64,000 nucleotides of DNA from Acidithiobacillus acidisediminis (GTDB lineage: Bacteria; Pseudomonadota; Gammaproteobacteria; Acidithiobacillales; Acidithiobacillaceae). The translations under genes and the position numbers were made by a program. The stretch spans positions 1,544,001 to 1,608,000 of the forward strand of contig NZ_JALQCS010000001.1 in assembly GCF_023277115.1 (NCBI RefSeq). The letters run 5' to 3'. Below are positions 9,217 to 53,350 of this stretch, piece after piece. Each line of letters opens with the position of its first letter. The stretch's first letter is position 1. The notes below the pieces were generated by a model. It saw nothing but the letters and a program-made list of their open reading frames with translations. It was not told the origin of the DNA and did no database searches.

Positions 9217-9272
9217 TTGTCATAAAAGTGTCACAAAAGGTTCATGATACTGTCACGAACTTTGGGTATGAT
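9217..9272 (+). promoter_or_regulatory. Four-unit Pho box array and -10 of the pst operon
   Basis: Units TGTCAT (9218), TGTCAC (9229), GTTCAT (9240, degenerate) and TGTCAC (9251) fall at exact 11-bp steps, i.e. two tandem PhoB boxes. A -10-like TATGAT lies at 9267-9272, ten bases after the last unit. This is the known layout of PhoB-activated promoters, where the box replaces the -35. pstS begins at 9353. Confidence 0.88.
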
Positions 9273-9352
9273 GGCGCTCGCATAGAGATTTCAGACAACG
9301 AAGTCTCCTACTATGCTTGAGTACACTTGATAATGCCATCTTCGGAGGTTTT

Positions 9353-10438
9353 ATGTTGCTACGTTCCAAGAAGACTGTCGCCAGCGCTATGAAGGGTGTT
9401 GTTGTTGCTTCCCTCCTCAGTCTTGCTGCCGTCGCCGCTACGCCCGCTGTTGCTGCTCCCCAGGTGAGCCTGTTGGAGACCGGTTCGACCCTTCTCTACC
9501 CATTGTTCAATCTGTGGGTGCCCGCCTACACCAAGATGCATCCCAGTGTGAAGATCACCACGCAGGGAACGGGTAGTGGTACGGGTATCGCGCAGTCCAT
9601 TTCCGGTGTGGCACAGATCGGTGCTTCGGACGCCTACATGTCTGACGCGCAGGTAAAGATGCACCCGATGCTCAATATCCCCCTGGCCATCTCCATTCAG
9701 ATGATCAACTACAACCTCCCGGGTTTGAACAACAAGCATATCAAGTTGTCTGGCCCAGTGTTGGCGGATATCTACTCTGGTAAGATCAGCAATTGGGACG
9801 CCCCGGAAATAGCCAAGATCAACCCGGGCATCAAGCTGCCCAACCACAAGATCATTCCGATTCATCGTACGGATGGTTCCGGTGATACCTTTATCTTCAC
9901 CACCTACCTTTCTGATACCAACCCTGAGTGGGCGAAGAGTGTCGGTTACAGCACGACGGTGAGCTGGCCGACGGTGCAGGGTGGTATCGGTGCTGTGGGT
10001 AACCCGGGCATGGTCGAAGCCCTGAAGTCCACCCCCTATGGCGTTGCCTATATTGGTATTAGCTGGAAGGCACCGGTAGAGAAGGCGGGCCTGGGTATCG
10101 CCATGCTGCAGAATCGTGCTGGTAATTTTGTACTGCCCACGGTGGCCAATGCCAAGGCTGCAGCTGGTGAAATGGTCAGCAAGACTCCGGCGGATGAGCG
10201 TATCAGCTTGGTCTATGCGCCAGGGAAGAACGCCTACCCCATCATCAACTATGAGTATGCGATCGTGAAGAAGCAGCAGCCGAACGCCGAAACGGCTGCG
10301 GCAATGCGTGACTTCCTCAATTGGGCTTTGGACCCGAAGGGCGGCAACGCGCTGCACTTCATGGAAGCAGTGCATTTTGTGCCGCTACCTGCCAGTGCGG
10401 CGGAGTTGTCGCGCAAGCAGGTTGCTGAGATTCACTAA
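9353..10438 (+). CDS. pstS: Phosphate ABC transporter, periplasmic phosphate-binding protein
   Basis: PstS captures phosphate in the periplasm and delivers it to PstCA. The 361-residue product has a signal peptide (MLLRSKKTVASAMKG, hydrophobic core, ATPAVA cleavage). Mature family motifs include LLETGSTLLYPLFNLW, QGTGSGTGIAQ, IGASDAYMSD and HRTDGSGDTFIFTTYL, which form the phosphate pocket. The ATG at 9353 follows GGAGG (9344-9348). A TTG upstream at 9317 would lengthen the signal implausibly. A four-unit Pho array lies about 80 bases upstream, so the gene should be induced by phosphate starvation. pstC and pstA follow; pstB and phoU do not. Confidence 0.95.
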   Translation: MLLRSKKTVASAMKGVVVASLLSLAAVAATPAVAAPQVSLLETGSTLLYPLFNLWVPAYTKMHPSVKITTQGTGSGTGIAQSISGVAQIGASDAYMSDAQVKMHPMLNIPLAISIQMINYNLPGLNNKHIKLSGPVLADIYSGKISNWDAPEIAKINPGIKLPNHKIIPIHRTDGSGDTFIFTTYLSDTNPEWAKSVGYSTTVSWPTVQGGIGAVGNPGMVEALKSTPYGVAYIGISWKAPVEKAGLGIAMLQNRAGNFVLPTVANAKAAAGEMVSKTPADERISLVYAPGKNAYPIINYEYAIVKKQQPNAETAAAMRDFLNWALDPKGGNALHFMEAVHFVPLPASAAELSRKQVAEIH

Positions 10439-16277: not shown

Positions 16278-17584
16278 GCCAAAGTCTCGATATCGAGCGT
16301 TCTCACCGGGATCGCTCCTTACTCATACACGTCGCTGGCCCAGGAGCATCGGAGGATGGTGGCGAGGAATTTCGCCAGCTGGCAGCAGATACCGGCGCGA
16401 TCATTCTTGCGCTGTGGTCGGTTCCCCGCGCGCGTCTGGATCCTGCCACCTGTATTGGTCGTGGCAAGGTGCAAGAGATTGCCGATTTCGTGCGTGCCAA
16501 TGATGTCGATCTTCTCCTCTTCGACCGTTCGTTGACCCCGATTCAGGAGCGCAACCTGGAGCGAGCCTGCGCCGCGCGGGTAGTGGATCGGGTAGGTTTG
16601 ATCCTGGATATCTTCGCCCGGCGCGCGCGTACCTACGAGGGGCAGTTGCAGGTAGAGCTGGCGCAGCTGGATCATCTACGTACGCGTTTGGTGCGTGGCT
16701 GGACCCATCTGGAACGACAGCGTGGCGGTATTGGTTTGCGTGGCCCAGGGGAAACCCAGCTCGAGACGGACCGGAGACTCATTGGTGTGCGCATTCGTAT
16801 TCTGCGGGAGCGACTGGCGCGCGTCGCAGCACAACGGGCCACACAACGGCGTGCTCGGGTCCGCGCGCCCGCGCCTACGGTGGCTTTGGTAGGCTACACG
16901 AATGCCGGCAAGTCCTCCCTTTTCAATGCATTGACTGCGAATGCACAGTATGCAGCAGACCAATTGTTCGCCACACTTGATCCCGCCATCCGCCGTCTGG
17001 CTGGAGCCAGCGGGGCCACTACCCTGGTCGCGGATACGGTGGGTTTCTTGCGCGATCTCCCGACAGAATTGATCGCCGCCTTTCGCGCTACGCTGGAGGA
17101 GGTGAATCAGGCGCAGTTGCTCTTGCATGTGATCGATGCGGCGGCACCGGACCGGGATGAGCAGATTTCTGCGGTGGAGAGGATCTTGGCAGAGATTGGC
17201 GCTGACGAGATTCCTCGCATTCGCGTCTTCAATAAGATCGATCTACTCGGCGAAGAGCCGCGCGAACGATTGGACGACGCCGGTAGGGTGAGCGACCTCT
17301 GGCTCAGTGCCCAATCTGGGGCTGGTGTGGAAAGAGCGCGCACAGTCATTGCGCAGCGAGTGCATGGGACGCGTTTGCGACTAGATTGTGCGCTGGGTCC
17401 GGAGGAGGGCGCGCTGCGCGCGAGCCTGTTTCAGGCGGGCACAGTTTTGGAAGAATATTATGACAGCAATGGACAGGGTCACCTGCTGCTCGAAATTGAG
17501 GAGCAGGTGTGGGCAGGCTTGCAAAAGCGGTATCGGGCAGATAGTTGTCAGCGAGCAGATCTGCCTTCTACAATGCGCCCATAG
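16274..17584 (+). CDS. hflX: Ribosome-associated GTPase HflX, probable CTG start
   Basis: HflX is a GTPase that splits stalled or hibernating ribosomes. The Obg-like G1 motif is [14 protein letters not shown], with [10 protein letters not shown] (G3) and NKIDLL (G4). The glycine-rich N-terminal domain ends in [13 protein letters not shown]. The conserved N-terminal region ([18 protein letters not shown] through CIGRGK) lies upstream of the first in-frame ATG/GTG/TTG (GTG at 16469). The frame opens after a TGA at 16247, and no standard start lies in between. CTG at 16274 overlaps the hfq TGA as CTGA and follows GAGG by 7 bases, giving about 436 residues. The start is inferred; the function is firm. 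Confidence 0.93.
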
Positions 17585-22186: not shown

Positions 22187-22243
22187 TGTCATCAAAATGT
22201 CATAAAAATGTCGCACTATTGTCATGGTTTTAGGTCATACTAT
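22187..22243 (+). promoter_or_regulatory. Four-unit Pho box array and -10 upstream of olsB-olsA
   Basis: TGTCAT (22187), TGTCAT (22198), TGTCGC (22209) and TGTCAT (22220) stand at exact 11-bp intervals. A -10-like TACTAT lies at 22238-22243, about 12 bases past the last unit. The layout is the same as the pst promoter. The downstream gene starts at 22278. Confidence 0.88.
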
Positions 22244-22277: not shown

Positions 22278-23054
22278 ATGCTCAATACGCAAGCTCAGAA
22301 AAGTATGGGACGTAACACCGGGAAAGGGGAGCGCTCACTGCGCTTGTACCTTGCCCGCCATCAGGACGAGGTGGAGGCCGCGCAACGCCTACGCTACAGA
22401 GTGTTCAGCGCTGAGTTCGGGGCACAGCTCAGCGGCCCACCAGGAATCGATCAGGATGAATATGATCCCTTTTGTGAGCACTTGATTGTCGAAGATGAGG
22501 TGCGGCAGGAGGTCGTTGGTACCTATCGATTGTTTCTTCCGGAGCAGGTAGCCAATGTGGGCCGCTACTATGCGCAGACCGAATTCGATCTTTCTCGACC
22601 GTTAGCGCTTGGCTCTCGGGTCATGGAATTAGGCCGCTCCTGTGTTCATCCGGATTATCGCCAGGGAGCGGTGATTGTCCTACTGTGGTCTGGTCTGGCC
22701 GAGGCCATGAGTATGTGGGATATCGACCATCTCATGGGTTGCGCTAGCGTACACAGCACAGACGGTCCCGCCTTGGGTGCGTTATACCGGTCGTTGGCAG
22801 AGCAGATGGTTCCGGTGGAGCAACGCGTCTTTCCCTTGCGGACGGTACCCGCTTTTGATGTGACAGCGCAGGTTGAGCCGGTAGAGTTGCCGAGTCTCCT
22901 CAAAGGCTACCTGCGGGCGGGGGTGCGACTAGGTGGGGAGCCGTACTGGGACCCGCAGTTCCATTGTGCGGACTTCTTTGTCTGGTGTGACTCTCGCCTC
23001 ATTACCTCCCGCTACCAACAGCGCTTTCTGGATCCTGTAGCACAAGGCAAATGA
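22278..23054 (+). CDS. olsB: Ornithine-acyl-ACP N-acyltransferase-like protein (OlsB family)
   Basis: A 258-residue GNAT-fold acyltransferase of the OlsB/hemolysin-like family. OlsB transfers a 3-hydroxyacyl chain to the alpha-amino group of ornithine, giving lyso-ornithine lipid. Family features seen: RLRYRVFSAEFG, GTYRLFLPEQ, MELGRSCVHPDYRQGAVIVLLW and HLMGCASVHSTDG. The ATG follows GGGAG by 8 bases. It is coupled to an OlsA-like gene (ATGA overlap) and sits under a Pho box array, exactly the context expected for phosphorus-free membrane lipid made under phosphate limitation. An alternative is another N-acyltransferase of the same superfamily. Confidence 0.8.
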   Translation: MLNTQAQKSMGRNTGKGERSLRLYLARHQDEVEAAQRLRYRVFSAEFGAQLSGPPGIDQDEYDPFCEHLIVEDEVRQEVVGTYRLFLPEQVANVGRYYAQTEFDLSRPLALGSRVMELGRSCVHPDYRQGAVIVLLWSGLAEAMSMWDIDHLMGCASVHSTDGPALGALYRSLAEQMVPVEQRVFPLRTVPAFDVTAQVEPVELPSLLKGYLRAGVRLGGEPYWDPQFHCADFFVWCDSRLITSRYQQRFLDPVAQGK

Positions 23055-23971
23055 AGTTCCGTCGACGACGACAAAATTCTCCCGCCCACGCGCAATTGAT
23101 CCCGTATCCCAGCGACCGCATTCTGCGGCGCAGTCGATCCCGCGCATACCGGCGCCTGTGGCGAGTCCCCGCCCTCGCCCTGCACTTGGCGATCGCTTTT
23201 CCTCTGAGCTGGTGGTACTACGGTCGCCATCAAACCATAGACGCACGGTCGCTTGCGGTTTTTCGCTGGTGGTGTGGTGTTGCCTTGCGCATCCTGGGGA
23301 TCCGCCTGCGGGTAGCCGGTACGTTGCCGCAAGCACCGGTGATGCTGGCGGCCAATCATGTCTCCTATCTCGACATTCTCGCCTTGGCCGCGTTGTCTCC
23401 GGGCCAGTTCGTGGCGAAGAAAGAAATGGCAGCGTGGCCTCTCTTCGGTCGCTTGGCAGGCCGGCTAGGGACTTTTTTTATTGATCGGAACGACGCTCGA
23501 GCGAGCCAGCGCGTGCTCAAGAATGCTGCGGAAGTGTTGCGCGATGGGCGGATTCTCACCATCTTCCCGGAAGGAACTACCAGCGATGGTAATGATGTCG
23601 GGGAATTTTTTGCCGCCCCCTTTGAGACTGCGGTCAATGCGCAAAGTAAGGTGATGCCCGTTACCCTGCGCTACGAGGACCTCTTACGGCCCGGCCACGC
23701 CGACCGTCTCTGCCCCTTTATCGGCGAAGATACCCTCGCCGGGCATCTATGGCGCCTCACTGCCTCCGCACCCCTCACATTACGGGTGCATTTTGGTACA
23801 GCGCTGTCTCCAGAGCTGGGTCGGCGAGAACTCGCCAAAGAGACTCAGCGTTTGATCCGCGAAGCATTGCGACGAATGGAAGAGGGCGCGGAAATTACCT
23901 ATCTCGACCCCGCCCGCCACCGCTTACGCTCTGCCTGGGAGGCTTGGCGCCAACGCAGTCAGTCACATTGA
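23051..23971 (+). CDS. olsA: Lyso-ornithine lipid O-acyltransferase-like protein (PlsC/OlsA family)
   Basis: A 306-residue membrane-bound acyltransferase of the PlsC superfamily. Block I is NHVSYLD (His103, Asp108), block III is FPEGTTSDG (Phe172 onward), and block II around FIDRNDARAS is visible. A hydrophobic N-terminal segment (ALHLAIAFPLSWWYY) would anchor it. OlsA adds the second acyl chain to lyso-ornithine lipid; sequence alone cannot exclude 1-acylglycerol-3-phosphate activity. The coupled OlsB-like gene and shared Pho promoter favour OlsA. Confidence 0.78.
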   Translation: MKFRRRRQNSPAHAQLIPYPSDRILRRSRSRAYRRLWRVPALALHLAIAFPLSWWYYGRHQTIDARSLAVFRWWCGVALRILGIRLRVAGTLPQAPVMLAANHVSYLDILALAALSPGQFVAKKEMAAWPLFGRLAGRLGTFFIDRNDARASQRVLKNAAEVLRDGRILTIFPEGTTSDGNDVGEFFAAPFETAVNAQSKVMPVTLRYEDLLRPGHADRLCPFIGEDTLAGHLWRLTASAPLTLRVHFGTALSPELGRRELAKETQRLIREALRRMEEGAEITYLDPARHRLRSAWEAWRQRSQSH

Positions 23972-41650: not shown

Positions 41651-42232
41651 TCAGTCGTTACGCAACACAAAGATCCGCAGGATTTTTCGATCTTGCAGGG
41701 CGTGCACTCCAGCCATGAACAGATGCCCCGACCAGTAGGCCCAGAGGAGATTGGCGACGAGGGAGTGGATGGTCTTGGGCAGGGCGTAATATTCTGGCGC
41801 GGGCTTGACGCCGCCAGCGGAGATAATCAGGTAGAACATAAATAAGCCGCTCAGGGCCATAATGCTGATGATCAGAATCCCCCAGCCATGCACTAGGCCG
41901 GGTAGGCCACCACGCATCCCTGCCGGGGGCAATTCGGTGCGCTGGAAGAGGCCTTCCAGGTCGGTAAGAACCCGCTGCCACCAGATGCCTCGGTAGGGAA
42001 AGAGGTGACGCCGCAATTCGCCATGCCGATAGATCTCCGCCCAGAACACCAGGATCACGCCCAGGGTCAAGATGCCGGAGATCATGTGCGCCCAGTACAT
42101 GGCGTGAGGGTAGAAACCAACTATTTTCCAGAGCGCATGCATCTGTAACTCACTGAAAAGCTGGAAGCTCACCAAGACCGCCAGCGCCAAATGCAGGGCG
42201 CGGATAACCTTGGGCCATGGAGGAATCGACAT
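41651..42232 (-). CDS. Cytochrome b561-domain protein, last gene of the RND/MCO cluster
   Basis: A 193-residue four-helix b561-like protein: VIRALHLALAVLVSFQL; YWAHMISGILTLGVILVFW; HGWGILIISIMALSGLFMFYL; HSLVANLLWAYWSGHLFMAGVHAL. Candidate heme His residues are in ALHLAL, WAHMI, TIHSLV and GHLFMAGVH. It starts 5 bases after the RND stop, so it is co-transcribed. A redox role next to the multicopper oxidase is plausible but unproven. Confidence 0.8.
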   Translation of the reverse strand: MSIPPWPKVIRALHLALAVLVSFQLFSELQMHALWKIVGFYPHAMYWAHMISGILTLGVILVFWAEIYRHGELRRHLFPYRGIWWQRVLTDLEGLFQRTELPPAGMRGGLPGLVHGWGILIISIMALSGLFMFYLIISAGGVKPAPEYYALPKTIHSLVANLLWAYWSGHLFMAGVHALQDRKILRIFVLRND

Positions 42233-42237
42233 AAATA

Positions 42238-45200
42238 CTACCTCGTGCGCAGAGGGGGAGAAAACCGGAGTTGGAAAGCGCTATAGAGCACGGGCGCCAG
42301 CCAGAGAGTGGTGAGGGTAGCGAGGAGCAAGCCGCCCATGACCGCCAGGGCCAGGGGTTGCAGCAGGTCCGTACCGCGCCCGACGCCGATGGCCAAAGGC
42401 AGAAAGCCCAAGACGTCCGCAACCATGGTCATGAGGATGGGCCGCAGGCGTTGACGTGCGGCAAAGGCGACGTGATCCAGACGCGGTGCCGCGCCCCCCA
42501 ATTGACGTGCGCGGGCAAAGAGCAGGATCACGTTGTTGACGGCAATGGCAAAGACCAGCAGGACACCGAGGAAGGCAGTGCTGTCCAGATCGGTGCCCGA
42601 CAATAGAAGCAGCAGTAAGGCCCCTGGTGCCGCACTGGCAACGGCCAGGAGGGCGGCGAGGGCGGCGCGCTGGCTGGAGAACTGCAGGCCCAGAAGTACC
42701 AGCAGGATCAGTAAGGCCGCTGCGAGGATGAGGCTCATTTGCGCAAAGCTGCGCTGTTGCTCCTGATAATAACCGACCAGATGACTGGTGACGCCCAGGG
42801 GCAGGCCGACCTGCTGGATGATGGCCTGGGCCCGCGCCGCCGCCGTTGTCAGGCCGTCGCCAGCACGAGGATGCAGTTTGATTTCCGCATCCGGCACCAG
42901 ATTCTGATGGGTGACGTAGGGGATGGCACCTTCCAGATACAGCTTGGCGGCCTGGGTCAGAGGGACTTGTTGGCCGTTGGGTAGCCAGATGGACGTCTGT
43001 CCCAAGGACTGGGGTGTCGTAGATGCTTGTTGCACCGTGACCCGGATTGGCAAGATTTGCTCCCCATGCAATAGAAAGCCGGCCTGGACACCCCAGAAGC
43101 GGCTTTTCAGGTCTTCCGCAAGGGTTTGAGGCGAAAGGCCAGCAATGCTACTTATGGCATTGGGTTGGACTTCGATTTCCGGCCCCGCGGAGGGGGATTT
43201 CAAAACGATGGAGGTAAACTGCTGACTGGCGTTCAGGGCGTGGGTCAGTTTTAGGCCAATTTGATGCAAGGTACGCGGTTCGCTACCAAAGAGTTGGATG
43301 ACCAGGGGGGCGTGGGAACCGGAGAGGTTACCCAGGCGATTGATCATGATCTGTTGGGTCTCCAGGGTGGTCAGGTTTGGGACGGCCCGGCGAAAGGCCA
43401 CACGAAGCTCTTGCATGACCTGGGCGGTGCTGGCGCGGTGCTGGCGCTTGAGCACAATGGTGATGCCGCCCTTGTTGGGGGTGGCGTAGGCATTACCCAG
43501 ACCGCGCCCGACCACGAGAGATACCCGCGCTACGTTGGGATTTTTTCGGGCAATGGCCATCAATTCGCGGCCGGTGCGCGTGGTTTCGCTCACCGTGCTC
43601 CCGGTTGGGGTGCGGAAGGGTACGACAAACAGGCCCTCGTCCCAGTGCGGGAGAAAGGCGGTAGGAAGGGTCGCCACGCCCACGCCCCCGAGGAGCAAGA
43701 GCAGCAATAGCAGGGGCAGCGCGAGCAGCGGGCGACGCATACCAAAGACCAAGGCGCGGCTATAGTGCCGGCGCAAAGCGCGCTCCCCCCAGAGCCGATG
43801 GGGTCGCCGCGCACGACCCGCCAGCCACAGGGCAAATACGGGGGTGATCGTCATGGCGATGAGCTGCGAGGTGGCAAGGGCGATGACGATGGCCAGGGCC
43901 ATACTGCGGAACAAGAGACCGACAGTCCCGGAGAGAAAGATCAGGGGCAGGAAGACGACGCAGGCGGTGAGGGTGGCCAAGGTCATCAGGGGTAGCAAGG
44001 CGCGAATCCGCTGCAAGGCACGTTCCCGGCGCTGCTCCGCATCGTCCTCGTGCAAGCCATGCAGGCCCCGTTCGACAATCACGATGGCGTGATCCACCAA
44101 AGCGCCCAAGGCCGCTGTGATCCCTCCCAGGGTCATGATATCGATACCGAAGCCCAGGGCATGGAGGACGAGCAGTGTGGCCGCCAGGGCCAAGGGGACA
44201 ACGGTGAGGGTGGCGAGGGCGGCATCCCAACGCCCAAGAAAGGCGAGCACCACCAAGAAGGCGAGAAAGGCGCCCAGGGCAAGGGCGCTCCACACATCGC
44301 TGAGGCTGGAGCGAATCAGCCGGCTGAGATCAAAGATCTTGACGAGATGCACGCCGGGCGGCAGTTGCTGGCGCAAATATGTCATCGCCTGGGTGACTGC
44401 CGCAGCGACCTGCACCTGATTGGCCCCTTGTTGGGCCGCCACATCGACGATCAAGGCATGCTGCCAACCGGGTACCGCCGCCTGCCGGATCAACGGTGGC
44501 GGCCCGGTCTGGATGGTAGCCACGGCACTGAGGGGCAAGGGGGCGCGCACCCCTTGGGCGTTCGCCGGACCAATGGGTAACGTCAGCTGCCCCAGGGCGG
44601 CGGGACTCTGGGGACGCGGTGTGGTGGCCAGGATGAACTGCTGGTGAAAGGCATTCAGCACGCCCGAGAAGAACGGACCCTGCTGCATCTGCAAGGCAGC
44701 AATCACCGCGGCGGCGGGGAGGTGATATTGGGCCAGTCGGCGCGGATGTAGCAGCACCTGGACCTCGGGCCAGCCACGCCCAGTGGCGTTGACGTGATAG
44801 ACGCCAGGCAGGGAGAGCAGGGCGGGGCGTAAGGTAAAGGCGAAGGTCGGCATCATGGCCGAACTGTCCAGGTGCTGGGAAACCAGGGCGTACTCCAGCA
44901 GGGGATAGATGTTGGGCGTCATCAAACGGACCGTCATCTTGGCCCCGGGGGGCAGCGGGATATGGGAAAGACGAGCCTGCAGGAGGAGATAGGCCTGCTC
45001 AGGGTTGCTCTGGGGATTGAAGTAGACGTGGAGCTTGCTCAGACCATTGCCGGTCTGGGAACGCACCAGGGTGACGCCTGGTTCGCCCTTGGCCGCCTGT
45101 TCCAGGGGACGAGTGACCTCTAGGAGCATGACCCGCACGGGCAGATCCTGGGTATGGACCAGGACTGCCACCTTGGGAAAGTCCACCGGCGGAAACACAC

Positions 45201-45309
45201 TCTCTGGCATTCCGCGCAGGGTATAAACCCCCGCGGCCAACAAGATGGCCACCAAAAGCAAAAGTGTGGCGCGGGTTTCCCAGAGAAAGCGCAGATAGCG
45301 ATGGCTCAT
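42238..45309 (-). CDS. RND efflux pump inner-membrane subunit
   Basis: A 1023-residue RND transporter with the usual 12-helix, two-half layout (first helix TLLLLVAILLAAGVYTL; second half starting RPLLALPLLLLLLLLGGVGV). The TM4 proton-relay region reads ALGALVDHAIVIVERG, with one Asp where drug pumps have two. That is closer to the single-Asp pattern of heavy-metal pumps of the CusA type (GAMVDAAIVMIEN, from memory). It overlaps its membrane-fusion partner by 4 bases. With the TolC and multicopper oxidase this suggests metal (Cu/Ag-like) efflux, inferred. Confidence 0.88.
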   Translation of the reverse strand: MSHRYLRFLWETRATLLLLVAILLAAGVYTLRGMPESVFPPVDFPKVAVLVHTQDLPVRVMLLEVTRPLEQAAKGEPGVTLVRSQTGNGLSKLHVYFNPQSNPEQAYLLLQARLSHIPLPPGAKMTVRLMTPNIYPLLEYALVSQHLDSSAMMPTFAFTLRPALLSLPGVYHVNATGRGWPEVQVLLHPRRLAQYHLPAAAVIAALQMQQGPFFSGVLNAFHQQFILATTPRPQSPAALGQLTLPIGPANAQGVRAPLPLSAVATIQTGPPPLIRQAAVPGWQHALIVDVAAQQGANQVQVAAAVTQAMTYLRQQLPPGVHLVKIFDLSRLIRSSLSDVWSALALGAFLAFLVVLAFLGRWDAALATLTVVPLALAATLLVLHALGFGIDIMTLGGITAALGALVDHAIVIVERGLHGLHEDDAEQRRERALQRIRALLPLMTLATLTACVVFLPLIFLSGTVGLLFRSMALAIVIALATSQLIAMTITPVFALWLAGRARRPHRLWGERALRRHYSRALVFGMRRPLLALPLLLLLLLLGGVGVATLPTAFLPHWDEGLFVVPFRTPTGSTVSETTRTGRELMAIARKNPNVARVSLVVGRGLGNAYATPNKGGITIVLKRQHRASTAQVMQELRVAFRRAVPNLTTLETQQIMINRLGNLSGSHAPLVIQLFGSEPRTLHQIGLKLTHALNASQQFTSIVLKSPSAGPEIEVQPNAISSIAGLSPQTLAEDLKSRFWGVQAGFLLHGEQILPIRVTVQQASTTPQSLGQTSIWLPNGQQVPLTQAAKLYLEGAIPYVTHQNLVPDAEIKLHPRAGDGLTTAAARAQAIIQQVGLPLGVTSHLVGYYQEQQRSFAQMSLILAAALLILLVLLGLQFSSQRAALAALLAVASAAPGALLLLLLSGTDLDSTAFLGVLLVFAIAVNNVILLFARARQLGGAAPRLDHVAFAARQRLRPILMTMVADVLGFLPLAIGVGRGTDLLQPLALAVMGGLLLATLTTLWLAPVLYSAFQLRFSPPLRTR

Positions 45310-46298
45310 TGCTGCGGATCCAGGGGGGAGCCGTTTTTCAGATGGGTGTTACCGCGCAGGACGATCTGCTCTCCAGCAGGCAGATTCCCCGTTACCGTGA
45401 CTGTGTTCGGCGTGCTTTTCAGGACAGTGACAGGAATGGCAGCAGCGCGCCCCTGGTGATCCACCCAGACCTGGCTCTGCGCGCCTACCATGACGACGGC
45501 ACGGCTGGGCAGGAGATAAGCCTTCTTGCCGACTTCCGCCCGAGCAAAACGCAAGTCTACCCATTGCCCGGGAAGCAGGGGACTATTGGCGGGTAGATGC
45601 AGAATCACGGCCACCAGGCCGGACTGCCGCGCATCCTGGCCGATGGAATGAATCATCGCGGTTCCCGCCCAAGCGTCGCTGTGGACCTGAACCTGGGCGC
45701 CTGCCGAAAGGCGTTGTGCCTGCTGCGGCGGCAATAGGGCCTGTATCCAGGGATGGCCGCGTCCGGAGATGCTGGCAATGGGCGTACCCGCAGCCACTAC
45801 GCTGCCCGGCTGCACCTGATAGCGCAGTAGGCCCGTGATTGGGCTGCGTAACTGCAGCTGAGCGGCCTCCGCCTGCAGGGCCTGCAGCGACGCCCGGTTG
45901 GCTGCCAGGGTAGCCTGACTGGTCTCCAGGGTTTGCTGGGAAATTACGCCGTCCCGAAAGAGTTGGCGATCGCGCCGGCGATTTTCGGCGGCGAGATGAA
46001 GCTGCGCCTGCGCCGCCTGGGTCTGGGCCGCCAGGCCCGCCGGTACGATGCGGGCCAAGGGCGTCCCAGCCTGTACCATGCCAGTTGGGGCAAATGGGCC
46101 GAGAATAGTGCCGGTCACCGGCGCCGTCAGGGTCTGTGCAGGTATGCCCTGTACTTCACCCAAGGCAGAGAGGGTAATCGCCGGCGTCGTCGGCGCAGGG
46201 AGCGTGAGCAGGGTAATGGGTACACCGGTGCTGGCAACGGCTGCTGTGCAGCAGAACAGGCAGGCTATGCCGACGCTACCCAAGAAAATGTTTTTCAT
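45306..46298 (-). CDS. RND periplasmic adaptor (membrane-fusion protein)
   Basis: A 330-residue HlyD/AcrA-type adaptor with signal peptide (MKNIFLGSVGIACLFCCTAAVAS). The first lipoyl half is APVTGTILGPFAPTGMVQAGTPLARI and the second is LRSPITGLLRYQVQPGSVVAAGTPIASI, separated by an Ala/Gln-rich coiled-coil hairpin. A beta-barrel domain follows. I use the ATG at 46298, which overlaps the tolC stop by 4 bases. Confidence 0.87.
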   Translation of the reverse strand: MKNIFLGSVGIACLFCCTAAVASTGVPITLLTLPAPTTPAITLSALGEVQGIPAQTLTAPVTGTILGPFAPTGMVQAGTPLARIVPAGLAAQTQAAQAQLHLAAENRRRDRQLFRDGVISQQTLETSQATLAANRASLQALQAEAAQLQLRSPITGLLRYQVQPGSVVAAGTPIASISGRGHPWIQALLPPQQAQRLSAGAQVQVHSDAWAGTAMIHSIGQDARQSGLVAVILHLPANSPLLPGQWVDLRFARAEVGKKAYLLPSRAVVMVGAQSQVWVDHQGRAAAIPVTVLKSTPNTVTVTGNLPAGEQIVLRGNTHLKNGSPLDPQQ

Positions 46299-47605
46299 GG
46301 CAGTTTCCCTACATCGAGAGCAAGTTGGGTGGCCGCCATCTGTGCCCGGATCTGGGCGCGTATCAGGGCGAGGCGAGCCTGGACCCAAGCCTGATCGGCT
46401 TGCGCAAGATTCAAGGCATTCAATGCCCCCGCACGAAAGCCGGCACGCGTCATGTGGTATACGGCGCGGGCGGCGGCCAGGCTGTGGCGATCCTGCTGCA
46501 AGCGGGTGGATTCCTGCTGGTACACGCCATAATCCGTGTTGATGCGCGTTTGGATCTGCAAGAGCAGGGCGCGGCGGGCGGAGCGCAGGGCGGCCAACTG
46601 TTCCTGCGCCGCAGCAATACGGTCGTGCCGGCGGCCAAAACCGAAGAGTGGGAGATTCAAGGTAATACCTGCCTGCCAGCCCAGGGACTGGGGCCGGGGC
46701 ACTTGGGTGCTGTCGAGTCCGTAAGCGGCCTGGACGTCGATATTAGGGGCGAGGCTGGCCCGCTGCACGGCCACCTGGGCACGGGCGGCATGCAGTTGCG
46801 CCTGGGCGACCTGCAGTAGGGGTTGCCTTTGACTGGCTTCTTGCCAGAGTTGCGGGAGTGGGGCCGGAGCCGCTAGCAAGGTGCTGGTGGGAGCCAACTG
46901 GACTGGGCTCCCAGCAGGCAACTGCAATTGCAGACGCAGATTGCGTCGCACACTGCCCAGAGCTTCTTGCGCCTGGGCCCTGGCACTGCGTGCTTGCAGC
47001 AGCAAGAGCTGGGTTTGCACCAGATTCAGGCGCGCCGTGGCACCGCTGCGGAACTGGTCGCGGGTGTCGTGGTAGAGCAGACGGTCTTGGGCGAGCACGC
47101 GTTGCCAGAGCGCGCTGGTATTCTGTGCCAACAAGACCGCATACCAGGCGTTGCTCAAGGTGGTGGCTACTTGTAGACGCACGGATTGGGTCTGGCTTTT
47201 GGCAACGGCGCTCTGGTCTTTGGCCAGCTTGGCCAGGGCCGACAGTTGTGGGGCATAGAGCGGGGCGGTCAGCACCGCTTGACCGATCACTTCTCGCTGC
47301 CCATTGGCGGCGGCAAAGATGGGTTGGCCATTGCGACTCTCGGTCCAGATACTGCCCGCGCGCAAGGATAATTGCGGGAGTCGATCCGCCTGGCTGGCCT
47401 GTGCCGTGTCGGCGGCGCTCCGTGCCAGCGCCTGTGCGGACTGCAAGCTGGCCTGCACCTGTATCCCCCGCTGCACAGCCTGCGCTAAGGACCAGTCTTC
47501 TGCCGCAGCAACGCGACAGAAGAGCAATGCGCTCATCCCCAGGGAGACGAGCCACCAGGCTGGTTTTTTGCGGGAGGTGGGTTGTTTTCTACTTTGGATT
47601 ATCAA
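46295..47605 (-). CDS. TolC-family outer-membrane efflux channel
   Basis: A 436-residue outer-membrane factor with a signal peptide (LVSLGMSALLFCRVAAA) and two TolC repeats of long helices (LAQAVQRGIQVQASLQSAQALA; AGITLNLPLFGFGRRHDRIAAAQEQ). It overlaps both neighbours by 4 bases, completing the tripartite pump. Confidence 0.9.
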   Translation of the reverse strand: MIIQSRKQPTSRKKPAWWLVSLGMSALLFCRVAAAEDWSLAQAVQRGIQVQASLQSAQALARSAADTAQASQADRLPQLSLRAGSIWTESRNGQPIFAAANGQREVIGQAVLTAPLYAPQLSALAKLAKDQSAVAKSQTQSVRLQVATTLSNAWYAVLLAQNTSALWQRVLAQDRLLYHDTRDQFRSGATARLNLVQTQLLLLQARSARAQAQEALGSVRRNLRLQLQLPAGSPVQLAPTSTLLAAPAPLPQLWQEASQRQPLLQVAQAQLHAARAQVAVQRASLAPNIDVQAAYGLDSTQVPRPQSLGWQAGITLNLPLFGFGRRHDRIAAAQEQLAALRSARRALLLQIQTRINTDYGVYQQESTRLQQDRHSLAAARAVYHMTRAGFRAGALNALNLAQADQAWVQARLALIRAQIRAQMAATQLALDVGKLP

Positions 47606-49248
47606 GCCGGTAAAACCGTAAATTGGCCCATCATGCCGTTGTCTTCATGTTCTAGCATGTGACAGTGATACATATAGGGGAAATCGTCGGGGGCGGTATA
47701 GCCATAGTGGGCAATAAAGCGCACCGTTTCATTGCGACGGATGAGCAAGGTGTCCTTCCAGCCCCGCTCTACGGCGGGCGGCTGGGCGCCATTGCGGGAC
47801 AGGATCTGAAAGGAGGTCCCGTGGACGTGGAAGGTGTGCGCCATCTCCGCGGCATTGTGGATTTCCCAAATTTCCGTGGCGCCCAGCTGCAAGCGCTGGT
47901 TGATGACGCTCATGTCCATGTATTGATCATTGATCGAGAAGAGTTTCATTCTCCCCACGCCCATGGACATCTGCCCCGGCCCATTGTGTGCTGCCTCCGC
48001 CGACTGGTGGCGGATTGCCCTCATGTCGCTCATATTCATGCCACGCAGGACAAAGCGTCGTGGACCAGCGTTGGGATGAAGTGTGGGGATGCTTTGTAGA
48101 CGATCGGGCAGGCGCCCAGCTGGCCCCTGCGCTGACCCCACGCGAATTTGCAAGAGATTGAAATTGCTGCGATCGAAATGGTCGCTGTCCATGGGTCGTA
48201 GACTGAGCTCCGGGATGACACTGGCGGAATCGCTGCGCAGATATAGGGTCTTGCCCGCGAGTCCGCGCAGATCCACCAGGATTTCTACTCGCTCGGCAGG
48301 GGCCAGGAGCTGCCGTTGGACCTGCACGGGCGATTCCAGATACCCGGCGTCACTGGCCACCACATAGAACGGGCGATCTTTAGACAGGGCAAAGTTGTAG
48401 ACGCGCGCATTGGAAGCGTTCAATAGGCGCAGCCGTACCCACTGGGCTGGCGCCTCCCATACCGGGGACTCCCGACCATTGATCAGAAAGCGATTGCCCT
48501 TCATCCCCATCACATCCATGGGGGCTGGCATATAGTTCAGAATGCCCTGAGGGTCCAGAAGCCGGTCTTGGACGATGACGGGAATATCGTCCACGCCCCA
48601 ATGTCGAGGCAATCCCAGGGCAGCGTCGGTCCCGTCCTGCACCAGATAGAGCCCGGCCAGTCCGGCGTATACATGGGGTCCCGTGCGCCCATCGGGATGG
48701 GGATGATACCACAGGGTGGCCTCGGGCTGATCGATGGTATACCCATAGGTCCAGGTCTTGCCGGACTCGATCAGACTTTGGGGGCCGCCATCCATGGTTC
48801 CGGGCACGTGGGCACCGTGCCAATGGGTCGTTGTCGTCTGAGACAAAGCGTTGTGCACGAAGATGCGCAAGGCTTTGCCGCGGGGGATTTGCAGGGCGGG
48901 CCCCAAAAGATTGCCGTTGTAGCCCCAGGTAGGGGTGCGTAGACCGGTGCTCAGAACGCTTTGTCCTGGGGCCATGCGCAGATGAAATTCGCGTACACCA
49001 TCACGTCCGAGTTGCCCGGAATATAGGGGTGGGATGGGTAATGGGCTGGCGAAGGGGGGTGTCACCAGGGTCCCGCTCGACGCGCCCATCTTCATTCCCG
49101 TGCCCATACCCATCATCCCACCCATGCCGGCGTAGGCGGGTAGGGCAGCGACTGCCCCGAGGGCACCCATGCCGAGGGCCAGAAACTCCCGACGAGAGAG
49201 GGGGTGGATAGGTTCCTTTGAGCGGTCTTTTTCGGTGCTGTCGTCCAT
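47602..49248 (-). CDS. Tat-exported multicopper oxidase (CueO-like)
   Basis: A 548-residue three-cupredoxin multicopper oxidase. The Tat signal is LSRREFLALGMG. A Met/Gly-rich stretch (GMGGMMGMGTGMKMGASS) follows at the mature N-terminus and could bind Cu(I). The four copper-ligand segments are present: THWHGAHVPG, LWYHPHPDG, HTFHVHGTSF and MYHCHMLEHEDNGMMG. CueO-type enzymes oxidise Cu(I) in the periplasm. The ATG at 49248 follows AAGGAG; a longer reading lacks a plausible signal. It lies 46 bases after the TonB receptor and overlaps tolC by 4 bases. Confidence 0.9.
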   Translation of the reverse strand: MDDSTEKDRSKEPIHPLSRREFLALGMGALGAVAALPAYAGMGGMMGMGTGMKMGASSGTLVTPPFASPLPIPPLYSGQLGRDGVREFHLRMAPGQSVLSTGLRTPTWGYNGNLLGPALQIPRGKALRIFVHNALSQTTTTHWHGAHVPGTMDGGPQSLIESGKTWTYGYTIDQPEATLWYHPHPDGRTGPHVYAGLAGLYLVQDGTDAALGLPRHWGVDDIPVIVQDRLLDPQGILNYMPAPMDVMGMKGNRFLINGRESPVWEAPAQWVRLRLLNASNARVYNFALSKDRPFYVVASDAGYLESPVQVQRQLLAPAERVEILVDLRGLAGKTLYLRSDSASVIPELSLRPMDSDHFDRSNFNLLQIRVGSAQGPAGRLPDRLQSIPTLHPNAGPRRFVLRGMNMSDMRAIRHQSAEAAHNGPGQMSMGVGRMKLFSINDQYMDMSVINQRLQLGATEIWEIHNAAEMAHTFHVHGTSFQILSRNGAQPPAVERGWKDTLLIRRNETVRFIAHYGYTAPDDFPYMYHCHMLEHEDNGMMGQFTVLPA

Positions 49249-49264: not shown

Positions 49265-49287
49265 AAAAACGGGGGGCTGGGCCCCCC
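49265..49287 (-). terminator. Attenuator-like terminator between the TonB receptor and multicopper oxidase genes
   Basis: On the minus strand GGGGGGC-CCA-GCCCCCC forms a 7-bp GC stem followed by GTTTTT, an intrinsic-terminator shape. It lies in the 46-base gap, so only part of the Pho-driven transcription should reach the oxidase and pump genes, unless a further promoter exists. Confidence 0.7.
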
Positions 49288-49294
49288 AAGCGCC

Positions 49295-51676
49295 TCAGAA
49301 ATGGGCGGAAATGCTACCGTACACCGTGAGCGGCGCGCCTGGCAAAGCCAGCACCTGTCCGGCAGAATCTCCACCCAACAGACCTCCACCCGTGATGTAC
49401 TGGAACTCGTTGTAGTGGTTGTTGGTCAGGTTCAGGATGTTCAAGCTCAAGTCTACCCGCTTGAGCATCGGGACCATACCGTGCATGGGCAGTTTGGCAT
49501 CCACACCCAGATTCAAGGTGCCGTAAGCAGGCATCATTTGGGCACTCGGCGCGCCCGTATTGTTATTGAACATGCCCTGGGCACCCACGTACTGATACCA
49601 GAGTCGCGGCTGCAGGAGATTGCCAGCCAGAAGCGCGCGATAGGTCAGACCAATGTTGAAGGTCTTGTTGGGCACGTTGGAAACGGGTAGACCATCGTAG
49701 CTCACCCCACTGGTCACATAGTGGGCAAAGACCGCCTTCTCGAAATTCGCGTTCAAGAAGACATCCAGGTTATAGAGGAGGTTGTCTTCCAACGCCAGAT
49801 TCACGCCCTGATAGATGGAATCACCATTGGCATCGCCAATATAGTTGCCATTACTATCATACAAAGGAATGTACTGATTGGTGTAGTGCAGGTGATAAAA
49901 ACTGGCGGTAAACAGGAAGTGGTGCAAAAACGCCGCCTGCTGAAAATGAATCTTCACGCCGGCATTATAGTCTGCACTATGTTCCAGGTTATAGATGGGG
50001 GCCTTTTTCTGATACAGACCGCCACCACCGCCCACTTGCGGTTCCTTGTATGCCTGGGAGTAACTGGCAAAGAGGGCTAACCAGGGCATCGGCTGCCAGT
50101 TGAAGTCCACCGACGGCTCCACTTGGGTGAAGCTGGTATGGGCCGCCGGCAGTACGCCCTGATTGTTGAGCGGGTACAGTTGATAGGCCTCGGCAAAATC
50201 CGCCTGGGCCGCTGGGGTGTATTGAGTTTGGTAGTTGATGACGCGCACACCCGGGGTGATATGCAGATTGCTCATGGGACTGATGCGGTCCTGAATGAAG
50301 GCGGCCAGGTCAGTCTGATCAAAGTAATCGCTGCGATAATGGGCATTAGGCACAAGACGCGAGCCATAATACGGCGCATTGGTGTTGTAGAAGGCGTTGC
50401 GCGTATTGTAGCGACTGTTTAGAAAGAAACCCCCAAAGCTCACGAGGTTATAGGGTAGCTTTGCCGTAAAGAACAGCTTATCGCCATATACCGCATCATG
50501 GGGATTGTTGTACTCGTACAGGTTGCTGGGATTCGACAGGCCATAATTGTTGTAATGGAAATGCAGTCGATGACCATAGCGGTACCAGATCAGGTTGTGC
50601 ACGGCCCAGGTCTTGTCGAGATCCACATTCAATTTGCTGTAGAGCAACCAAGTGCTATTACTGTCCTGCTTGAACCACACGCTCTCTGGCAGGGAAGAGT
50701 AGTAGCCGCTGCTGGTCTGGCTGTAGAGGGGCGAGTTGGCGGTGCCGTCCAGGGTTACGCCGGAAATAGGATTCACGGGGATCGGAACCGGGCGATAGCC
50801 AGAGCCTTTGGCCAGATAGGCGCCCAAGGAGAAATCACCGTTGCTGAAGGTCTTGCGGGTTTTTAGGAACCACGCATAACTGTAGCTGGGGTTATTGAAA
50901 CCATCGGGGCTTTGTCGATAGCTGTTGGATGAACCGGCGCCGCCCGCTAGGATAGTGGACCAGCCGTCGATATTGCCGGTGCGGATGTTGAAGACAATAT
51001 TTTTGGCGTTATAACTACCGTAAGTGAGTTTAACGTCGCCCCCCGGCTTGGCGGTGGGCTGCAGGGGAACAAAATTGATTTGACCCCCGATATTGTTATA
51101 CCAGCGCTGCTCCGGGTTGCCCGGACCATAGGTGATGCCAATGCCTTGCAGGATGCCTGTTTGTGGCACCTGGGGCGATTCCCACAAGCCCGTGGACGGG
51201 TCGACCATGGGCACACCGTCAAAGGTCACCGAAAGACTGCCGTTATCGATCTGGCCGCCGGAGAAACCGCCCCAGCCCTGCTTGACCCCGTTGATGCTGA
51301 TGGAGGTTTTGGTGGCACCAGAGGAACCATAGCCAGATACACCAACGCCGGGCGCATAGCTCAGGGCCTGGGCACTACCGCCCATGGGGCCAGCGGCCGC
51401 CATCTGCGCCTTGTCCAAGACCTTGATGGACTGACCGGACTGAAAGTTATGTTTCTGGGTCAATGACTTGGCCTCTTTGCTGCCGAGGTAGCTGCTGGCT
51501 TCCACCGCGGCGCTGACTTCGCCGATGGATACAGCGGACTGAGTAGGTGCCGTCACGCCATCGGCGGCATAGGCCGAGCCGGACAGCAGGACGCCGGCGG
51601 CCAACAAGGAACACTGTAGGCGCGACAGGCGCAAGTATTGCGGTAGCGCAAAAACAGAATTGCTCATCACATTCAT
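49295..51676 (-). CDS. TonB-dependent outer-membrane receptor under a Pho box array
   Basis: A 793-residue receptor. It has a signal peptide (LSRLQCSLLAAGVLLSGSAYA), a plug domain from about residue 75 to 220 (MAAAGPMGGSAQALSYAPGVGV, FDGVPMVDPSTG) and a 22-strand barrel rich in Tyr/Asn. The C-terminus is GSISAHF, with the terminal Phe of outer-membrane proteins. The start may be the ATG at 51676 or one at 51667, which has better spacing to GAGAGG. The substrate is not identifiable. A four-unit Pho array upstream and a YncE-like propeller gene behind a paralogous promoter point to phosphate-limitation control. E. coli has a comparable neighbour pair, yncD (PQQ receptor PqqU) and yncE. Confidence 0.88.
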   Translation of the reverse strand: MNVMSNSVFALPQYLRLSRLQCSLLAAGVLLSGSAYAADGVTAPTQSAVSIGEVSAAVEASSYLGSKEAKSLTQKHNFQSGQSIKVLDKAQMAAAGPMGGSAQALSYAPGVGVSGYGSSGATKTSISINGVKQGWGGFSGGQIDNGSLSVTFDGVPMVDPSTGLWESPQVPQTGILQGIGITYGPGNPEQRWYNNIGGQINFVPLQPTAKPGGDVKLTYGSYNAKNIVFNIRTGNIDGWSTILAGGAGSSNSYRQSPDGFNNPSYSYAWFLKTRKTFSNGDFSLGAYLAKGSGYRPVPIPVNPISGVTLDGTANSPLYSQTSSGYYSSLPESVWFKQDSNSTWLLYSKLNVDLDKTWAVHNLIWYRYGHRLHFHYNNYGLSNPSNLYEYNNPHDAVYGDKLFFTAKLPYNLVSFGGFFLNSRYNTRNAFYNTNAPYYGSRLVPNAHYRSDYFDQTDLAAFIQDRISPMSNLHITPGVRVINYQTQYTPAAQADFAEAYQLYPLNNQGVLPAAHTSFTQVEPSVDFNWQPMPWLALFASYSQAYKEPQVGGGGGLYQKKAPIYNLEHSADYNAGVKIHFQQAAFLHHFLFTASFYHLHYTNQYIPLYDSNGNYIGDANGDSIYQGVNLALEDNLLYNLDVFLNANFEKAVFAHYVTSGVSYDGLPVSNVPNKTFNIGLTYRALLAGNLLQPRLWYQYVGAQGMFNNNTGAPSAQMMPAYGTLNLGVDAKLPMHGMVPMLKRVDLSLNILNLTNNHYNEFQYITGGGLLGGDSAGQVLALPGAPLTVYGSISAHF

Positions 51677-51740
51677 CCTCTCGTAGGCGGTTGTAAAAAA
51701 TAGGCCAATTTGGTGTGTTTAAGACCAAAAATGGCAACCC

Positions 51741-51795
51741 ACGATAGCAAGTGAACGTGACACTATTATGGCAGTTTAATTACACTTTTGTGACA
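51741..51795 (-). promoter_or_regulatory. Four-unit Pho box array of the TonB receptor
   Basis: Read on the minus strand the units are TGTCAC, TGTAAT, TGCCAT and TGTCAC, at plus-strand positions 51790, 51779, 51768 and 51757, exactly 11 bp apart. A -10-like TATCGT (plus ACGATA, 51741-51746), preceded by TGC, lies 10 bases downstream. Confidence 0.85.
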
Positions 51796-51947
51796 TTACC
51801 CAATTGGGCATAACGCGTATCCATCTGCCCATAGTCAAGGATAAGGCCCGAGACTTTGCACAGAATTAGGAACGCGTTTCCCATTGCGGACCGAGTGGAT
51901 AGGGTGCCCCGGAGATGCGCGATCGCTTCGTCCTCCGGGGCAGGAAT

Positions 51948-53006
51948 TTACTGGGACGTCTTGGCTATACCGCCCAGCACAGGTTGGTAGACGTATACGG
52001 CATGTGCTTCGCCGGTATAGACAAAAATCCGGTGATTCAGCAGATCCACGGCCCCGGTATGGGTCTTGCCGTAGCCCGTGGAGACAAAGGTCACCGGCTT
52101 CAGGGTTTGGGCATTGTAGACATTGAAGCCCTTGGCATCGCTTTCAAAGGCGTACACCAGGTGATAGGTTGGATCGTAGGCCACCTGATCAATTCCCGCA
52201 CGCGCCGGCAGGTGTGCCAACACCTTAAGGGACTTGGCATTAAAAACGAAGATTTGCCCACGATCGGTCCCAACCCACAGGGTATTGGTCTGGGGGTCGA
52301 ATATCTGACCCTTGGTATTCACATGATGACCGTTTGGCGACGCCGGAAAATAGGGCGCTATATTAGTTTTGGCTTCGATATGATCATTGCGCAAGTTGAT
52401 CTTCTCTTCCCAGGAGTCGTCTGGCATGTACAACACCTGTTGCGACGGAACGAGGACACCCAGATCCGGTCCGTCTCCGACCTTGGGGAACAAAGGAATG
52501 GTGCCCAAGAACTTGGGCTGTGCAGAAAGCGTGTATTTATCGACCCGATTGTTGTCGTCCATAGCTATGTACAGCCGATGTCGTGCCGGGTCGGTCCAGA
52601 TGCCATCGGGACTGGTAACGACAGTCGAGAACTGATGGCGTACCTGCCAGCCCTGCTTGGCAATGACTACAATCCGGCCGACGCTTTTGCCGTTGACCTT
52701 GGGATTTGAGGTCCAATACACGTAATGTGCGTCAAAAGCCTGCCCGTCGGGATGACTGATACCCTGGCGAATGACCTTGACGATCTGGTCCGTGTCGGCG
52801 TTGATCACCACCGCTCCAGCATCCGCCTTGCCCATGGATACGTAGATCCGATGGTTGCCTGGATCATAGCTGACCGCATCCCCGCCCTGGTCGGTGGTGG
52901 GCAGGGGGATGACCTTGGTGAGCTGGAAGGAGACACCAGACGCAAGGGCCGTGATTGGCAGAAGAGATGCGACGGCGAGGATACTGAGTATTCTCTTTTG
53001 CACCAT
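51948..53006 (-). CDS. Secreted YVTN/YncE-like beta-propeller protein under a Pho promoter
   Basis: A 352-residue protein with a signal peptide (ILSILAVASLLPITALA). Repeated propeller blades follow (YDPGNHRIYVSMG, TDPARHRLYIAMDD, FDPQTNTLWVGTDRG, YDPTYHLVYAFESD, DLLNHRIFVYTG), the spacing of YVTN or YncE-type seven-bladed propellers. No catalytic motif is seen. A good GGAGA site precedes the ATG. Its promoter is a duplicate of the TonB receptor promoter, so the two are co-regulated. It may bind the receptor's ligand or process it; this is inference. Confidence 0.8.
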   Translation of the reverse strand: MVQKRILSILAVASLLPITALASGVSFQLTKVIPLPTTDQGGDAVSYDPGNHRIYVSMGKADAGAVVINADTDQIVKVIRQGISHPDGQAFDAHYVYWTSNPKVNGKSVGRIVVIAKQGWQVRHQFSTVVTSPDGIWTDPARHRLYIAMDDNNRVDKYTLSAQPKFLGTIPLFPKVGDGPDLGVLVPSQQVLYMPDDSWEEKINLRNDHIEAKTNIAPYFPASPNGHHVNTKGQIFDPQTNTLWVGTDRGQIFVFNAKSLKVLAHLPARAGIDQVAYDPTYHLVYAFESDAKGFNVYNAQTLKPVTFVSTGYGKTHTGAVDLLNHRIFVYTGEAHAVYVYQPVLGGIAKTSQ

Positions 53007-53051
53007 ATGAAAATCTCCAAGTTTTTGCAGATAGGAATGTTACGCTTGCAC

Positions 53052-53150
53052 TCAAATAACATGCACGACAAGCTCCCGCGTACGCGAGAGCGTTTCCAAC
53101 GACAATAGTCTGAAGATTGGTGTATTCTCCAGTTCCATGCGCGCCACCAT
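53052..53150 (-). CDS. Possible 32-residue leader ORF in the propeller gene's 5' region
   Basis: Starting from ATG at 53150 (after GAGAGG) a short frame reads MVARMELENTPIFRLLSLET... and stops at 53052, about 45 bases before the propeller ATG. The ATG occupies the position that, in the paralogous promoter, corresponds to the start of the TonB receptor gene. It may be a true leader or merely the scar of the duplication. Confidence 0.3.
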   Translation of the reverse strand: MVARMELENTPIFRLLSLETLSRTRELVVHVI

Positions 53151-53211
53151 CCTCTCAGGCAGTTATAAAAACAGACCTGTTTGGCTTTTTTAAGACCAAA
53201 AGTGGCCCGTC

Positions 53212-53255
53212 ACTATAGCAAGAGAATATGACACTATTATGACACTTTTGTGACG
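53212..53255 (-). promoter_or_regulatory. Three-unit Pho box array of the beta-propeller gene
   Basis: Minus-strand units CGTCAC, TGTCAT and TGTCAT (plus positions 53250, 53239, 53228) are 11 bp apart. A -10 TATAGT (plus ACTATA, 53212-53217), preceded by TGC, lies 10 bases beyond. It is homologous to the TonB receptor promoter and lacks exactly one 11-bp unit. It implies a leader of about 200 bases. Confidence 0.85.
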
Positions 53256-53350
53256 ATTATCGGCTCGGTGTAACGCGAATCTACTTATCTATTGTTGAGC
53301 ATAAGGCCCGTGACTTTGCGCATAATTAGGGGATGTTGCGATTCAAGTCA

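Follow-up and report, generated by a model that had tools for sequence, protein, structure and literature searches.

Duplicated Pho-type promoters precede a TonB-dependent receptor and a secreted beta-propeller in an acidophilic bacterium

TonB receptors under the control of PhoB have been described in Caulobacter crescentus, where uptake of alternative phosphate donors was proposed for them and where phosphatases and nucleases are induced alongside (PMC11208175). In Pseudomonas aeruginosa the PUMA3/VreA system combines a Pho-controlled TonB-type motor, ExbB2-ExbD2, with a receptor-like protein (PMC4971064, PMC7480860), and expression of ExbB2/D2 is linked to Pho (PMC7480860). In sphingomonads, ExbBD-TonB has been tied to an organic phosphorus compound as phosphate source (PMC7142613). 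YncD of E. coli was identified as PqqU, an importer of PQQ (PMC12124388, PMC11658791). This TonB-dependent transporter is neighbored by an exported seven-bladed propeller, YncE, and has been linked to Pi limitation (PMC11658791). The locus analyzed here shares features with all of these systems but differs from each of them. It belongs to a lineage other than that of Caulobacter, its receptor has a propeller partner, and in some relatives the receptor gene is joined in one operon by those for its own ExbBD-TonB, RNase T2 and a phosphoesterase. VreA has no barrel and signals via a sigma factor, whereas the receptor described here has a plug and a barrel, and no sigma or anti-sigma genes were seen adjacent to it. 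The sphingomonad system concerns phosphotriesterase-based degradation of insecticides, and no comparable operon was described there.

The window, a stretch of 64,000 nucleotides from the 2.81-Mb genome of an acid-loving mine and volcano bacterium, encodes both proteins on its reverse strand. The TonB-dependent receptor comprises 793 amino acids (49295-51676), and its plug and barrel domains score above the Pfam cut-offs (PF00593, E=8.6e-35; PF07715, E=3.5e-5). The propeller gene lies upstream (51948-53006) and codes for a predicted secreted seven-bladed beta-propeller of 352 amino acids with an N-terminal hydrophobic signal (AlphaFold pLDDT 85.8). Reading of the reverse strand confirmed what the initial annotation had reported in front of these genes, namely two promoters with TGTCA-type units at 11-bp steps and a TGC-extended -10. 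The receptor array (51795-51752, reverse strand) consists of four units in exact 11-bp steps, TGTCACAAAAG TGTAATTAAAC TGCCATAATAG TGTCACGTTCA, two of which are degenerate. It is followed by TTGC-TATCGT, in which the -10 hexamer TATCGT (51741-51746) carries the TGC extension and is preceded by the last unit, which begins 16 bp ahead of it. The propeller array (53255-53223, reverse strand) has three 11-bp units, CGTCACAAAAG TGTCATAATAG TGTCATATTCT, followed by TTGC-TATAGT with the likewise TGC-extended hexamer TATAGT at 53212-53217. The distance of 16 bp between last unit and -10 hexamer was found in all ten promoters compared, including these two, and the same placement occurs in the pstS, olsB, phosphate-symporter, OprP-type porin and exbB promoters of the same genome. 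As in the known Pi genes of this genome, the array takes the place of a -35 element and keeps a constant distance to the -10. Judged by these arrays, the receptor and the propeller each lie behind a near-perfect phosphate-starvation promoter.

For scoring, a 44-bp matrix was trained on seven control promoters of this genome, with the receptor and propeller sites left out, and run over the window and selected stretches; the genome-wide evidence comes from these stretches and a pattern scan. Within the window the training sites of pstS and olsB ranked first, followed by the receptor with 47.2 bits, whose site also aligns with the control promoters, and the propeller with 33.4 bits; the next independent site reached about 6 bits. 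Composition-matched 300-bp sequences gave maxima of 7.5 and 3.6 bits (3000 trials each), and 40 simulated 64-kb windows a mean maximum of 1.4 bits, the largest being 21.0. The two internal controls are on the forward strand: the array of pstS at 9218-9261 (coding sequence 9317-10438; PstS TIGR00975, 346.7 bits) and that of olsBA at 22187-22230, ahead of the ornithine-lipid genes (22278-23971). The pattern scan of the whole genome with at most three mismatches yielded 19 matches, compared to 2 for a reversed control pattern. One match, at window position 17445, was rejected as chance, as it lies inside a coding gene with three mismatches and a poor score. Arrays were also recorded in front of a homologue of phosphate:H+ symporters, an OprP/O-type porin accompanied by a phytase-like gene, an ABC transporter of the phosphonate type, a PhoB-like regulator in which no receiver is recognizable and an exbB-exbD-tonB-RNase T2-phosphoesterase cluster, and a two-unit site is located near the phoR-pstB junction. 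A true PhoB is encoded in the genome (313.8 bits, above the curated cut-off). In the open-licence papers searched, no description of an Acidithiobacillus Pho box was found. A second porin gene, OprD-like and located downstream of the pair formed by the OprP/O-type porin and the phytase-like gene, is preceded by a 30.7-bit array (L044, position 3958, reverse strand).

The receptor promoter was compared across relatives, as conservation of the 11-bp arrays had been set beforehand as a refutation test for Pho control. A scan of 84,980 species genomes for the receptor family returned 30 loci, which belong to Acidithiobacillaceae and, at 43-60% identity, mostly to uncultured bacteria (metagenome assemblies). 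Close orthologs were defined by at least 68% identity and sufficient upstream sequence (n=20), and an array by at least 20 bits within 350 bp upstream. An array lies directly upstream in 19 of the 20 close orthologs across the family, versus 5 of 372 other ORFs. The exception is L079, where the receptor is the third gene of an operon and an array of 59.6 bits lies in the first promoter of that operon. The ortholog of the A. ferrooxidans type strain has one of 41.5 bits. No array was found by the 44-bp matrix in front of the distant orthologs (43-60% identity). For the propeller's own promoter, the comparison covered this genome only. Because of array placement, matrix scores and ortholog conservation, Pho control of both genes, as the initial annotation had proposed, is very likely. 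The units match those of pstS, olsBA and this genome's Pi symporter in identity and spacing and are conserved across the family, which argues against a siderophore receptor that carries Pho-like repeats by chance or answers to another regulator of the OmpR family. TonB receptors of A. ferrooxidans have been listed as siderophore receptors (PMC2621215), and the receiver-less PhoB-like regulators encoded near receptors might bind such arrays too; nevertheless, this explanation is highly improbable.

The similarity of the promoters extends beyond the arrays. The receptor copy of the shared block (51674-51870, reverse strand) reaches into the GAGAGGATG ribosome-binding text, and the propeller copy spans 53148-53330 on the same strand. 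The two blocks align over approximately 190 bp with 146 identities and 33 mismatches (81.6% ungapped identity), and the main indel between them is a single 11-bp unit. The local score between the copies is 75, compared to 9.4 +/- 1.4 for shuffles and at most 24 for either copy against any relative's promoter compared. The alignment bears out the earlier suggestion that the upstream region was duplicated, and the two copies form direct repeats on either side of the propeller gene. The propeller leader (53052-53150, reverse strand) retains the duplicated receptor ribosome-binding text together with an upstream ORF of 32 codons (MVARMELENTPIFRLLSLETLSRTRELVVHVI) ahead of the start of the propeller gene. 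Folding of the leader RNA is only slightly better than that of shuffles (z -1.5), and for this reason no riboswitch is claimed.

In seven relatives in which both genes are complete, the propeller and receptor genes are neighbors. Three arrangements occur overall: the propeller lies downstream on the same strand, diverges from a shared spacer or, as here, lies upstream with its own promoter copy. In many receptor-bearing relatives it is absent or decayed, which indicates that it is not essential to the receptor. The trees of the two proteins conflict: the receptor studied here clusters with others of its genus, the propeller with Acidithiobacillus, and each split has 100/100 support. The simplest account would be that a propeller gene was replaced or acquired beside the receptor and that duplication of the receptor promoter brought it under the same control.

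The initial annotation had likened the pair to yncD-yncE of E. coli. The resemblance is limited to the fold and the gene pairing, and no recognizable kinship in sequence was seen. No match between the receptor and YncD/PqqU was obtained by phmmer or profile search (PDB), and hhalign gave a probability of 35.6% at 20% identity. In this weak alignment R304 of PqqU corresponds to the invariant R370 of the receptor, but the other signature positions of PqqU, the aromatic Y99 and R365, face I143 and N420. Homology of the receptor to PqqU was rejected on these grounds and on the absence of the PQQ-dependent glucose dehydrogenase Gcd (TIGR03074), which was not found in any of the 29 family genomes. 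The propeller fits YncE with a target TM of up to 0.78 at 13-14% identity (hmmsearch, E=0.037), and many other propellers match in Foldseek as well. A function of the PqqU-YncE type, in which imported PQQ would serve glucose dehydrogenase and the resulting gluconate would dissolve mineral phosphate, could draw on the reported link between Pi limitation and PqqU in E. coli (PMC11658791), on the matched arginine and on the presence of PqqU among the Foldseek matches of the receptor (target TM 0.66). Given the unmatched signature residues, the lack of a detectable sequence match and the absence of Gcd, it is hardly credible. The Foldseek matches of the propeller also include 3vh0, a crystal structure that shows E. 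coli YncE in complex with DNA, which would fit a role connected with nucleic acids and proves nothing for this propeller.

The predicted fold of the receptor fits a TonB-dependent transporter, for which a plug and a 22-strand barrel are characteristic, and its Foldseek matches are transporters of this type, such as FhuA, FecA and PqqU. In the model the plug region is of low confidence, with a pLDDT below 50. Downstream on the same strand lie a CueO-like multicopper oxidase (47602-49248, start taken at ATG 49248) and a block (41651-47605) of a TolC-type outer membrane factor (46295-47605), a membrane fusion protein, an RND permease (42238-45309) and a cytochrome b561-like protein (41651-42232). 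The gap between the receptor stop and the oxidase start contains a strong terminator-like hairpin plus T run (49270-49288, reverse strand); read-through into the oxidase gene is possible. This neighborhood would suit a Pho-induced module against copper or other metal stress: Pi limitation would lower polyphosphate and weaken metal tolerance, and PhoB would co-induce the receptor, propeller, oxidase and RND genes. A link between polyphosphate and metals has been described in A. ferrooxidans (PMC2621215), and in several relatives the receptor is surrounded by the oxidase, by TolC/MFP/RND genes and by a two-component pair of the OmpR type. However, the hairpin separates receptor and oxidase in the window, and in L079 and G018 the receptor is found with ExbBD, TonB and RNase T2, not with oxidase or RND genes, which makes this explanation very unlikely.

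The gene order in these two relatives (G018 comprising L115/L116) starts with an array, a receiver-less PhoB-like regulator, a second array, exbB, exbD, the same receptor and tonB. It continues with an ABC binding protein, a permease, an ATPase, a membrane protein and RNase T2; in the L079 operon a phosphoesterase follows. In G021 the receptor comes after the regulator and exbB region, with two arrays, and G017 harbors a 51% paralog of the receptor in an operon of this type, again with RNase T2 and a phosphoesterase. Among the 29 family genomes, 28 of which contain a receptor ortholog or homologue, many members of the receptor family have such a regulator no more than 6 kb away or an RNase T2 gene no more than 12 kb away. 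In the genome under study the operon is split. The regulator and the exbBD-tonB-RNase T2-phosphoesterase genes, both with arrays, lie near C1:2.05 Mb, and the receptor lies apart.

Based on its Pho-type promoter and on the linkage to TonB motor, ribonuclease and phosphoesterase in relatives, the receptor probably serves phosphorus scavenging, with a phosphorus-containing compound and not iron as its substrate. The operon linkage lends support to the phosphorus-related ligand that had been guessed from the window. Under Pi limitation, phosphorylated PhoB would bind the 11-bp arrays and recruit sigma-70 polymerase to the extended -10. This would turn on the receptor gene and, through the second copy of its promoter, that of the propeller. 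In this scheme the receptor would be the entry point in the outer membrane for a TonB system under Pho control. The motor of this system, ExbB-ExbD-TonB, would be induced via arrays of the same kind, and RNase T2, the phosphoesterase and the PhoB-like regulator without recognizable receiver would be produced along with it. A phosphorus-bearing compound could in this way enter the periplasm, where the co-induced hydrolases would release Pi from it for uptake by the Pho-controlled Pst system and Pi symporters, while the propeller may be an exported helper protein that binds the ligand or passes it on. As to the ligand, the co-induced RNase T2 and phosphoesterase favor a nucleic-acid-derived compound or another organic phosphate ester. 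This explanation as a whole is probable. Against it stands the position of the receptor apart from exbBD-tonB, as it could use another of the seven TonB-type proteins of this genome, and the multicopper oxidase, RND efflux and cytochrome b561 genes downstream look like metal handling, though the hairpin intervenes. Also on this side are the distant orthologs without an array and the many receptor-bearing relatives in which the propeller is missing or decayed.

The recurrent cytochrome b561 and PepSY neighbors leave import of ferric phosphate, or of an iron-organophosphate, conceivable. The receptor would then take up Fe(III)-tied phosphate of acidic, ferric-rich water, b561 and PepSY proteins would reduce the iron in the periplasm and free the phosphate, and the multicopper oxidase and RND pump would handle excess metal. 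In many relatives cytochrome b561 genes, and in Acidithiobacillus PepSY genes as well, are linked to the receptor, although membership in the b561 family alone implies no reduction activity. Among the matches listed, ferric-citrate FecA was the best solved-structure fit (target-normalized TM 0.69). The receptor model is not reliable in its plug region. The ABC importer of the L079 operon belongs to a binding-protein superfamily of the phosphonate/thiamine/iron type. The RNase T2 and phosphoesterase of the integrated operons point to organic phosphate instead, and this alternative is unlikely.

The receptor may form part of a self-contained Pho-controlled TonB pathway, which we put forward tentatively: nucleic-acid fragments (or ferric-phosphate complexes) would be imported as phosphorus source and processed by periplasmic RNase T2 and phosphoesterase, with tuning by the receiver-less PhoB-like regulator. 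We know of no characterized TonB receptor for this class of substrates. Phosphate is tightly bound to iron in acid mine water, so the way in which such organisms acquire phosphorus is of practical interest for bioleaching. Iron itself is plentiful there, yet TonB receptors of biomining bacteria have been entered in catalogues as receptors for siderophores. One receptor family, present in all but one of the family genomes, including the A. ferrooxidans type strain, would be reassigned to phosphorus scavenging. The associated motor, hydrolases and regulator are named, and the promoter prediction is directly testable. The initial annotation had regarded PhoB-type control of a receptor-propeller pair as undescribed. 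PhoB-controlled TonB receptors are known from Caulobacter (PMC11208175), but the duplicated promoter that recruits the propeller gene is new as far as the literature examined shows, and so are the integrated operon, the breadth of its distribution among acidophiles and the receiver-less regulator.

Further regions add to this picture of the receptors and regulators. PhoB-like regulators with Trans_reg_C and no Pfam-recognized receiver repeatedly adjoin receptors (L043 8861-9754, L048 6880-7764, L079 7868-8680), and the gene in L043 has its own Pho array. A second TonB receptor of the genome under study (L127 3538-9156, C1:1148000-1162000) has an array of 37.1 bits and is followed by genes for ExbB, TonB and a PhoD-like phosphatase; in the other receptor regions examined in this genome (L124-L126) no array was found. 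An apparently decayed member of the same receptor family is preceded by a Pho-like array of 39 bits (L047 from 4854, C1:1086853). In regions of L115 (2062-7482) and L079 (1-4282), another TonB receptor is followed by a propeller-phosphoesterase fusion of 977-984 amino acids, to whose propeller half the propeller of the window has no detectable homology. The L079 counterpart of this receptor is cut by the locus end, and in L115 its gene carries a Pho array of 48.9 bits.
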